Source of the DNA: Cupriavidus cauae
GTDB lineage: Bacteria; Pseudomonadota; Gammaproteobacteria; Burkholderiales; Burkholderiaceae
DNA: 64,000 bases
Direction of reading: 5' to 3'
Assembly (NCBI RefSeq): GCF_008632125.1
Contig: NZ_VWRN01000034.1
Coordinates: forward strand, 124,001-188,000
The first letter of the stretch is position 1; the number at the start of each line of letters is the position of its first letter. This document shows positions 34,236 to 36,833 of this stretch, in pieces. The notes beneath the pieces were generated by a model that was not told the origin of the DNA, ran no database searches, and saw only the letters and a list, made by a program, of their open reading frames with translations. A program made the translations under genes and the position numbers.

Positions 34236-35291
34236 ATGGCTTATCAAGTAACCGTGCTGCCGAGCGGCCGCCAATTCGAGGCGGAAGCGAACGAAACCAT
34301 CCTGTCGGCGGCGCTGCGTCAAGGCATCGGCCTGCCCTACGGGTGCAAGAACGGCGCCTGCGGTTCGTGCAAGGGCCGCGTCACCGCCGGCGACATCGTC
34401 CAGGGCGACCATGCCGCCTCCGCGCTGACCGCGCAGGAAAAGACCGAGGGCCGCGCGCTGTTCTGCTGCGCCAATGCGGCCTCGGACGTGACCATCGAAT
34501 GCCGCGAGGTCCATGGCGCCGGCGATATCCCGATCAAGAAGGTGCCGTGCCGCGTGCAATCGCTGGAACGCGTGGCCGAGGACGTCATCGTGGCGAAGCT
34601 GCAGTTGCCGGCCACCGAGCGCCTGCAATACCTGGCCGGCCAGTACGTCGAATTCCTGCTGCGGGACGGCAAGCGCCGCAGCTATTCGATCGCCACGCCG
34701 CCGCACGAGGAAGGCCCGATCGAACTGCATTTCCGCCATATGCCGGGCGGCGCCTTCACCGACTATGTGTTCGGCGCGCGCGAGGGCCAGCCGGCAATGA
34801 AGGAGCGCGACATCCTGCGCTTCGAGGGTCCGCTGGGCAGCTTCTTCCTGCGCGAGGACTCGGACAAGCCGATCATCCTGCTGGCCTCGGGCACCGGCTT
34901 CGCGCCGATCAAGGCCATCGTCGAGCACGCCGCCTACACCGGCATCACGCGGCCGATGACGCTGTACTGGGGCGGCCGCCGTCCGCGCGATCTCTACATG
35001 CACGCGCTGTGCGAGCAGTGGGCGCGCGAGCTGCCGAACTTCCGGTACGTGCCGGTGGTCTCGGACGCGCTGGCCGAGGACGAGTGGGACGGCCGCACCG
35101 GCTTCGTCCACCAGGCCGTGATGGCGGACTACCCGGATCTGTCGGGCCACGAGGTCTATGCCTGCGGCGCCCCGGTGATGGTCGAATCGGCGCGGCGCGA
35201 CTTCACCGCCCAGTGCGCGCTGCACGAGGATGCGTTCTTCGCCGACTCGTTCACCTCCGAGGCCGACCTGCACCCGGCCGGCGTGGCCTGA
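34236..35291 (+). CDS. 2Fe-2S flavin/NAD(P)H reductase (CDP-6-deoxy-delta-3,4-glucoseen reductase-like)
   Basis: 351 residues. The N-terminal plant-type ferredoxin domain has C37-x4-C42-x2-C45 (PYGCKNGACGSCKG) and a fourth Cys in LFCCANA. The FAD domain carries RRSYSIATPPHE, and the NAD domain LLASGTGFAPIKAI and YACGAPVMV. It passes electrons from NAD(P)H through FAD to the iron-sulfur centre and on to an oxygenase or dehydratase partner, which is not encoded nearby. No deoxysugar genes are present, so the database-style name is likely not literal. Confidence 0.92.
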   Translation: MAYQVTVLPSGRQFEAEANETILSAALRQGIGLPYGCKNGACGSCKGRVTAGDIVQGDHAASALTAQEKTEGRALFCCANAASDVTIECREVHGAGDIPIKKVPCRVQSLERVAEDVIVAKLQLPATERLQYLAGQYVEFLLRDGKRRSYSIATPPHEEGPIELHFRHMPGGAFTDYVFGAREGQPAMKERDILRFEGPLGSFFLREDSDKPIILLASGTGFAPIKAIVEHAAYTGITRPMTLYWGGRRPRDLYMHALCEQWARELPNFRYVPVVSDALAEDEWDGRTGFVHQAVMADYPDLSGHEVYACGAPVMVESARRDFTAQCALHEDAFFADSFTSEADLHPAGVA

Positions 35292-35438
35292 ACCAGGGCT
35301 CGCGGCGCGGCCGGGCTGGCCCAGCTGGCCCGGATCGCGCCCTGCCCGGCCCGCGCCGCTTGCCGTGCCACACCCGCACACGACCGCACCATCGTTTCAC
35401 GAGAACAACAATGACGACCCGGACCGCCACCGTCGTCT

Positions 35439-35467
35439 TTGACACTGGGGCGACTGCGTCTTATAGT
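35439..35467 (+). promoter_or_regulatory. Near-consensus sigma-70 promoter upstream of argD
   Basis: TTGACA (35439-35444), a 17-nt spacer, TATAGT (35462-35467). Predicted start about 35474-35476. One of the best promoter matches in the window. Confidence 0.8.
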
Positions 35468-35474
35468 TGGCCGC

Positions 35475-35540
35475 ATGAACCACGCCAACATCCGACGCAG
35501 CTTCCGTACGTCGCATCCCGCCAGGGTGCCACGCGGCTGA
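35475..35540 (+). other. Short ORF or sRNA 5' part in the argD leader (possible arginine leader peptide)
   Basis: ATG at 35475 opens a 21-codon frame ending at TGA 35538-35540. The peptide MNHANIRRSFRTSHPARVPRG has five arginines (7, 8, 11, 17, 20), including an adjacent pair, and uses CGA and AGG codons that are likely rare here. It ends inside GGCTGACC (35535-35542), which can pair with GGTC/AGCC just before the terminator. No ribosome site precedes it and the predicted transcription start falls on or next to the ATG, so it would be leaderless; a non-coding RNA is the alternative. Confidence 0.4.
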
Positions 35541-35568
35541 CCGTCGACAGCGTCTGTTCAGGTCATCA

Positions 35569-35596
35569 AGCCACGGGCAACCCCCGTGGCTTTTTT
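35569..35596 (+). terminator. Rho-independent terminator/attenuator 50 nt before argD
   Basis: AGCCACGGG (35569-35577) pairs with CCCGTGGCT (35583-35591), 5-nt loop, then a T-run (35591-35596) and more T. It lies between the promoter at 35439 and the argD start. The left arm's AGCC is also part of an alternative pairing with 35535-35542. Confidence 0.88.
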
Positions 35597-35645
35597 GTTT
35601 TGCCGCCCTTCCCTTTTCCTTGTTTGCCGATCTCTGGAGTCCGCC

Positions 35646-36833
35646 ATGGCATTTGCTGAGTATCCCGTCCAATCGCTGATGTACATCACCAACCGGCCCG
35701 AGCTCGTCTTCACCGAGGGCAAGGGCTCGTGGCTGACGGACCATCAGGGCAAGCGCTATCTGGACTTCGTGCAGGGCTGGGCCGTCAACTGCCTGGGCCA
35801 CTCGAACGAGGGCATGATCGCGGCGCTGAACGAGCAGGCCCGCAAGCTGATCAATCCGAGCCCGGCCTTCTACAACGAGCCGATGCTGCGGCTGGCCAAG
35901 ACGCTGACCGACAACAGCTGCTTCGACAAGGTGTTCTTCGCCAACAGCGGCGCGGAGGCCAACGAGGGCGCGATCAAGCTGGCGCGCAAATGGGGGCGCA
36001 AGCACAAGAACGGCGCCTACGAGATCATCACGATGGACCACAGCTTCCATGGCCGCACGCTGGCGACCATGAGCGCGTCGGGCAAGGCCGGCTGGGACAC
36101 GATCTTCGCGCCGCAGGTGCCGGGCTTTCCGAAGGCCCAGCTCAATGACCTGGCTTCGGTCGAGGCGCTGATCAACGACAAGACGGTCGGCATCATGCTC
36201 GAGCCGGTGCAGGGCGAGAGCGGCGTGGTGCCCGCCACGCGCGAATTCATGCAAGGGCTGCGCGCGCTGGCGGACAAGCACAAGCTGCTGTTCATCGTCG
36301 ACGAGGTGCAGGCCGGCTGCGCCCGCTGCGGCACGCTGTTCGCCTACGAGCTGTCGAACGTCGAGCCGGACATCATGACGCTGGGCAAGGGCATCGGCGG
36401 CGGCGTGCCGCTGTCGGCCCTGCTGTGCAAGGCCGAGGTGGCGAGCTTCGAAGCCGGCGACCAGGGCGGCACCTACAACGGCAACCCGCTGATGTGCGCG
36501 GTGGGCAGCGCGGTGTTCGAGCAGCTGCTGGCGCCGGGCTTCCTGCAGCAGGTGCAGGAGAAGGGCGCGTATCTGCGCGAACAGCTGCTGGCGCTGTCGA
36601 ACGAGTTCGGCCTGGCCGGCGAACGGGGCGAGGGCCTGCTGCGCGCGCTGATGCTCGGCAAGGACATCGGCCCGCAGCTGGTCGAGCAGGCGCGCGAGAT
36701 GCAGCCGGAGGGCCTGCTGCTCAATTCGCCGCGGCCGAACTTGCTGCGCTTCATGCCGGCGCTGAACGTGACCCGCGGGGAAATCGACCAGATGATCGGC
36801 ATGCTGCGGACGCTGCTGAAGTCGCTGGCCTGA
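35646..36833 (+). CDS. argD: Acetylornithine aminotransferase
   Basis: 395 residues, class III PLP aminotransferase of the ArgD type. [18 protein letters not shown] binds the cofactor phosphate, HSFHGRTL is typical, [18 protein letters not shown] contains the cofactor Asp, and the PLP lysine lies in [14 protein letters not shown]. It converts N-acetylglutamate semialdehyde and glutamate to N-acetylornithine in arginine synthesis. Succinyldiaminopimelate or succinylornithine activity is possible in relatives. GGAG lies 6-7 nt before the ATG. The leader carries a promoter and terminator that suggest attenuation. Confidence 0.9.

Follow-up and report, generated by a model that had tools for sequence, protein, structure and literature searches.

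In Cupriavidus cauae, argD is very probably (a probability of roughly 0.85) controlled by transcription attenuation, in which a translating ribosome registers the arginine supply through the charging of tRNA-Arg. By far the best reading of the region adds that the leader frame is leaderless and that the arrangement has been kept across several families of Burkholderiales. The stretch of DNA analysed, 64,000 nucleotides long, is referred to here as the window.

An earlier note on this DNA had described a promoter, a 21-codon frame with five Arg codons that include an adjacent pair, and a strong terminator about 50 nt ahead of argD. This order of promoter, Arg frame, terminator and argD is confirmed (Table 1). 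The promoter is present as described and is the sole sigma-70-like site on either strand of positions 34800-36200, where shuffled sequences average 0.1 such sites. Translation yields the 21 codons with five Arg, two of them adjacent, and the terminator stem-loop ends 53 nt before the argD start codon. The segments thought to pair with each other also lie where the note had placed them, with GGCTGACC at 35535-35542, GGTC at 35561-35564 and AGCC at 35569-35572. On folding, the RNA from 35474 to 35599 is more stable than 200 of 200 shuffled sequences (z = -3.11). The gene downstream is securely named, its product scoring 776.6 bits against NF002985 (cut-off 568), and it is 98% identical to argD of Cupriavidus gilardii strains USM5 and CCUG 38401. 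Promoter scans found no promoter-like site between the terminator and argD; judged by these signals, argD is therefore reached only through the terminator.

Table 1. Elements of the argD leader region and their positions in the window
Feature	Position	Strand	Basis
Sigma-70-like promoter, TTGACA-17-TATAGT	35439..35467	+	11/12 matches to consensus
Match to RF02884 (BcKCsr7), whole model	35461..35596	+	37.2 bits, gathering score 59, E 2.4e-6
Leader frame, 21 codons, MNHANIRRSFRTSHPARVPRG and stop, putatively leaderless	35475..35540	+	translation; frame kept in relatives
Candidate control codons CGA CGC (Arg-Arg)	35493..35498	+	Arg runs in relatives
Segment 1, 5' arm of the Arg-codon hairpin (partner 35536-35546)	35493..35501	+	9/9 pairs in window
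Segment 2, predicted antiterminator 5' arm GCC.CG.GGCUGACC, overlaps stop codon	35528..35542	+	13/13 pairs in window
Segment 3, predicted antiterminator 3' arm GGUC....AGCC.CG.GGC, overlaps terminator 5' arm	35561..35578	+	folds, pair counts
Intrinsic terminator, stem 35568-35592 and T-rich tail	35568..35599	+	terminator scan
argD, acetylornithine transaminase	35646..36833	+	NF002985

How might such a leader work? Judging by the position of the promoter, the 5' end of the transcript is expected at 35474-35475, so that transcription would begin at the ATG or one base before it. Because the ATG at 35475 lies 7 nt past TATAGT, the leader frame is probably leaderless, and with such a start the ribosome would load on the 5' end of the transcript without a Shine-Dalgarno site. 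When arginine is plentiful, the ribosome would pass the CGA and CGC codons and reach the stop codon, where it would cover segment 2, the 5' arm of the antiterminator; the terminator would then form and an RNA of about 125 nt would be released. When arginine is scarce, the ribosome would stall on the Arg run, open the hairpin between segments 1 and 2 (the 1:2 hairpin) and free segment 2, which would pair with segment 3, block the terminator and allow argD to be transcribed. Leaderless translation, stalling, switching and the arginine response are inferred.

The alternative pairing on which the switch would depend was examined by folding. A stalled ribosome was assumed to cover some 15 nt, counted from where the first Arg codon begins. 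For 28 leaders the nascent RNA was then folded as far as the terminator 5' arm reaches, and the folds place an antiterminator over this arm. The pairing of GGCTGACC proposed earlier turns out to be the core of a longer antiterminator, for which 13 of 13 pairs are possible in the window. In Cupriavidus, GCC.CG.GGCU(GACC) pairs with (GGUC)....AGCC.CG.GGC; the core of GGC/GCC and CG/CG occurs in all seven folds and the GACC/GGUC extension in three. In Oxalobacteraceae, nine of 16 folds pair GCCGUG.GC with GC.CAC.GGC, two have a variant of this and five a different pairing; for both groups, the classes were scored by reading the printed folds.

Two alignments were used to follow these pairings among relatives. 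The first contains all 32 distinct leaders of the Cupriavidus group together with L127, with three identical copies omitted, and the second 13 leaders from Oxalobacteraceae, out of 17 distinct ones (L136, L146, L151 and L155 were omitted for their differing lengths). The antiterminator is paired in 98.4% of cells in the 33 Cupriavidus-group sequences, as against at most 48.4% when slid, and in 93.3% as against at most 30.8% in the 13 from Oxalobacteraceae. Neither alignment contains a change on both sides of an antiterminator pair; the element is almost invariant within groups, and covariation is thus no test of it. The 1:2 hairpin, by contrast, covaries in Oxalobacteraceae, where the hairpin was taken from the fold of the first row of the alignment: six of its 16 pairs, with 11 cells, have both sides changed. 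In shuffles that ignore kinship, its covariation score or number of such cells was reached in 0 of 500 and the number of such pairs in 7 of 500. The equivalent hairpin of Cupriavidus has 89.6% of its cells paired, compared with 59.3% at one slide; it shows no covariation and has one pair broken in 12 of the 33 sequences.

The pairing between terminator arm and leader was also assessed lineage by lineage. A duplex test is weak for single lineages, four of 17 reaching p<0.05 on their own, and significant only in combination (p 3e-4). When arms were swapped between lineages as a control, the outcome was mixed: the leader's own arm was the best partner in five of nine leaders, and the arm's own leader was best for three of nine arms. 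The best partner of the terminator arm ends between 16 nt before and 18 nt after the stop codon in 16 of the 17 lineages, within the stretch that a ribosome terminating there would mask. The exception is one further family, f5, whose predicted antiterminator arm sits 36 nt ahead of the stop codon, a position that fits poorly with such masking. A GRG motif recurs in the leader frames of this family (L183, L234-L238 and L240-L245), all 12 of which encode it as GGYCGNGGC; this DNA is partly complementary to the terminator arm GGGCC(A/G)CG, yet it lies 45-60 nt before the stop codon, a different geometry.

Within Cupriavidus the layout is kept. All 30 loci of the genus, including that of the window, have the same promoter spacing, a 7-nt gap to the ATG and a frame of 21-22 codons. 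In all 30 the gap from stop codon to terminator is 28 nt, whereas the distance from terminator to argD varies from 71 to 128 nt. Length changes within the leader frame of the genus loci are whole codons. A pattern of promoter, leaderless ATG and CGACGY matched 35 of 36 Cupriavidus genomes, and the one that lacks it is 54% complete; seven genomes contain a second match elsewhere, and the reversed control pattern matched in 3 of 36.

The genome of the window holds two other promoter-like sites, in L163 and L165, that have TTGACTATCTA and TAGATAA in common and are closely followed by an ATG. Their frames read MDAAPQRRRSEAAPVQ... and MEPAVR, and the sites are possibly a repeated type of regulated promoter. 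Behind L163, which is the other leaderless RRR frame of this genome, the same scan found no terminator.

How far does the leader extend beyond the genus? Of 216 relatives in an argD scan of named genomes, the best 80 were retained, and a rule was applied to them that called for a TA-hexamer, 5-9 nt, an ATG, 11-44 codons containing RR, and a terminator arm. In 66 of these 80 loci a leader precedes argD, 65 found by the rule and one (L159) by a wider scan. They belong to Cupriavidus, Ralstonia, Burkholderia, Chitinasiproducens and Oxalobacteraceae, with frames such as MNQALHLRRRRTLLPPGSHAAVC in Ralstonia, MNRFQSTLRRRRPLPVPDAAGSSRTRA in Burkholderia singularis, MHCTAATAGSRRRRLC in Chitinasiproducens, MNAKAKLLRRRIPLPQPGMPCA in Paucimonas and MQPFLTLSRRRSPNPNPGTPCM in Noviherbaspirillum. 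By these scans no leader was found in the other 14 of the best 80, which are four Polynucleobacter, three Burkholderiaceae bins, three unclassified beta-proteobacteria, an Oxalobacteraceae bin, Ottowia, Dechloromonas and a bin labelled Thermoflexus.

In a sample of 120 genomes of the order, eight of 16 close argD loci (at least 62% identity) have a leader, some with quite different terminators. These eight are among L168-L183; seven were found by script and L181 by eye, and L176, which begins inside the gene, is not judgeable. In family f5, 12 of 13 close argD loci have a leader carrying RR; the leaderless frame of L239, identified by eye, lacks RR. Loci encoding the other type of ArgD served as a control, and by the same scan 12 of 13 have no leader; the remaining one, L191, has chance-like GTG/TTG frames. 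Two wider searches covered the order and plasmid records. A pattern scan of 399 genomes of the order, run with a gap limit of 68 where 70 was needed, matched in 1 of 399, which is uninformative on frequency, and no similar DNA was found in plasmid records at the sensitivity used.

Across families, then, an ATG near the -10 hexamer, a short frame, an Arg run, a stop codon and a terminator are kept, while the surrounding sequence turns over. The earlier note had proposed comparing Arg codons with RNA bases for conservation among relatives, and its attenuation reading gains support from this divergence of the RNA around a constant plan. The same note had seen its main doubt in the leaderless ATG. 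That position is itself conserved, the ATG lying 6-8 nt past the -10 hexamer in all 65 rule-found leaders from the best 80 of 216 relatives (the rule allowed 5-9). Leaderless mRNAs make up 4.67% of primary starts in C. metallidurans (PMC7563307) and have been reported in B. cenocepacia (PMC4603805), so this mode of initiation is available in these bacteria.

Other features were encountered at the argD loci of relatives. In L141, L150 and L154, which are argD promoters of Oxalobacteraceae, the -35 region TTTTGACGCACTGCGCAAAA forms a near-palindrome over the promoter, a possible operator site at which another regulator might act. In a diverged relative, a manganese (yybP-ykoY) riboswitch (L179:2795-2971, 106.2 bits) lies downstream of argD and before a 336-codon frame. 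In Ralstonia, a weak match to the leucine operon leader (33.8 bits, cut-off 50) lies on the minus strand downstream of argD (L111:4263-4343).

Among the 65 rule-found leaders from the best 80 of 216 relatives, 14 have a longest Arg run of two codons, 37 of three and 14 of four; all 195 codons of these runs are CGA, CGC or CGT, and the first is CGA in 64 of the 65. For comparison, seven neighbouring reading frames of the window contain 129 Arg codons, of which 5 are CGA, a rare codon here, and 27 CGG. Given RR, the run is RRR in 14 of 17 representatives versus about 17% in shuffles, and CGACGY occurs in 16 of 17 versus about 19%; the representatives were chosen after the leaders had been seen, and hence only these conditional figures are informative. 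In family f5 the Arg pair opens with CGA in nine of 12 leaders, and the pair of L245 is CGT CGT. Is CGA required for sensing? In the his leader of Salmonella, CGU, CGC and CGA share tRNAs, CGA is poorly read, and Arg-Arg pairs that contain it relieve attenuation strongly (PMC4046918). However, orf34 of Salmonella senses arginine as well with frequent Arg codons as with rare ones (PMC6386406), which makes a need for CGA less likely. The A of CGA pairs in the 1:2 hairpin of Cupriavidus, so that codon and structure are inseparable there; it is unpaired in the fold from Oxalobacteraceae. Since CGA is nearly fixed, codon-specific sensing is directly testable.

The Burkholderia counterpart of this leader has already been catalogued, as the small RNA BcKCsr7 (RF02884, "Burkholderia sRNA 7"). 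At the gathering score, Rfam gave nothing in the window; the match of Table 1 falls below the gathering score of 59 and is seen only in a search by E-value. The argD leader of B. singularis scored 134.2 bits, and eight other leaders put through the search along with it gave no match at E 0.01. At least 151 of 249 genomes of the family match RF02884, at least 105 of them above the cut-off; strict filters were used, by which weak matches are lost. The 30 loci that were fetched, selected for matching RF02884, all lie just upstream of argD and encode an Arg frame, most often MNRFLSALRRRRSPLRPDAAGSSRTRA, and 15 further members from seven genera are likewise argD leaders with an Arg frame. One review describes Bc_KC_sr7, here equated with RF02884 by name, as expressed and conserved (also named nc5U30 and RIT34, at 2,967,641-2,967,787 of B. 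cenocepacia J2315; PMC10987360), and its expression is given as confirmed in a second review (PMC6321483).

The earlier note had allowed that the same signals fit an sRNA of about 120 nt. The two readings are not exclusive of each other: Rfam files the homologue from Burkholderia among sRNAs, and such an entry fits the terminated product of an attenuator. The best reading is that the catalogued "sRNA" is the terminated RNA of the attenuator. Two other RNAs considered as relatives were dropped: NcS27 (RF02278) is described as a double-hairpin RNA elsewhere on the chromosome, and S17 of Bordetella as sitting between other genes.

A cis-acting attenuator whose released RNA or peptide also works in trans is a possible extension, though we consider it rather unlikely. 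Precedent exists in Sinorhizobium meliloti (rnTrpL and peTrpL), where an RNA of the same plan, rnTrpL, begins with the ATG of trpL and acts in trans (PMC7298713), and the Burkholderia RNA is listed among the expressed short RNAs of B. cenocepacia (PMC10987360). However, peptide and RNA both differ strongly between genera, so a widely shared trans target is improbable.

Could the RNA be a purely trans-acting sRNA of the BcKCsr7 type that has a promoter and a terminator to itself, and for which the vicinity of argD and the frame are incidental? Its filing in Rfam and its reported expression (PMC10987360, PMC6321483) would agree with this, but the invariable place of the fetched RF02884 loci ahead of argD and their Arg frames speak against it, as does the persistence of start, frame, Arg run and stop where the RNA sequence between families does not persist. 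Moreover, the short 5'UTRs of Sass et al. are defined as being due to processing or attenuation (PMC5688073), and from its name we read nc5U30 as one of these. Such an independent sRNA is therefore very improbable.

We give similarly slight odds to a leader whose peptide arrests the ribosome in response to a small molecule (ornithine, arginine or an antibiotic) and not to tRNA charging. Individual groups do keep C-terminal motifs, such as VPRG in most Cupriavidus and PCA in many Oxalobacteraceae, and speF of Salmonella also responds to ornithine (PMC6386406). Yet it is the Arg run that the families have in common, and in several genera the frame stops three or four codons past it. A comparison of synonymous with other changes did not point to a conserved peptide, even in Cupriavidus, where pN/pS is 1.11 in the frame of the leader peptide versus 0.70 and 1.41 in the other two. 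Least probable of all is a constitutive terminator of the upstream oxidoreductase gene, with argD served by another promoter: no other plus-strand terminator-like site was found from that gene to argD, but the sole promoter-like site precedes the terminator, none follows it, and the same order recurs in Burkholderia, Ralstonia and Oxalobacteraceae.

The preferred reading, an arginine attenuator ahead of argD, bears on how arginine synthesis is regulated in these bacteria. None of 60 genomes from the family and none of 100 from the order gave a match to the arginine repressor of Pfam (PF01316), the genome of the window being in both sets, while 9 of 14 control genomes did. According to a regulon survey, ArgR is kept in many gammaproteobacteria groups and absent from other classes (PMC5343134). 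A broader proposal, to which we give even chances, is that Burkholderiales, whose searched genomes yielded no ArgR, have argD under the control of an old leaderless attenuator with CGA as the slow sensor codon, kept across families while the RNA sequence turned over, and that the Burkholderia sRNA is its terminated product. If true, the attenuator reading would explain feedback on arginine synthesis in bacteria without ArgR, assign a function to RF02884 and provide a large natural set of attenuators with leader frames at the 5' end of the transcript.

The device resembles the attenuators of the trpL, hisL and leuL class in its short frame, where codons for the end product stand in tandem, its predicted antiterminator over an intrinsic terminator and the biosynthetic gene downstream; it differs in the amino acid, here arginine, and in having its start codon where the transcript is expected to begin. 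The leader models of Rfam gave no match in the window, and the open-access literature searched yielded no arginine biosynthetic gene under ribosome-mediated attenuation. Leader frames that sense arginine are already known; what is new here is the combination of tandem Arg codons and an intrinsic terminator ahead of an arginine biosynthetic gene. RF02884 is homologous, being the Burkholderia argD leader with the same frame plan, but it is filed as an sRNA, and its Rfam line and the passages on it in the two reviews mention no frame, arginine or argD.

In Salmonella, tandem Arg codons of orf34 mediate the control of speF by arginine: pausing at two consecutive Arg codons senses low arginine and alters the RNA structure (PMC6386406). 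In contrast to argD, speF belongs to putrescine and not arginine synthesis, its control involves Rho and RNase G with no intrinsic terminator, and the frame starts at +32 behind a Shine-Dalgarno site, in a member of the gammaproteobacteria (PMC6386406). The leader peptide of rbfL in Staphylococcus aureus likewise detects arginine restriction through its Arg codons, but there an eight-residue frame with AGA/AGG codons blocks a ribosome-binding site, and the gene downstream is a biofilm regulator (PMC13009471). A precedent for the 5' end is trpL of S. meliloti, whose frame begins at the 5' end of the transcript and whose terminated RNA, rnTrpL, is a discrete small RNA (PMC7298713). That system differs in its amino acid (tryptophan), its target, trpE(G), and its host, a member of the Alphaproteobacteria, and of the two it is rnTrpL for which functions in trans have been shown (PMC7298713).
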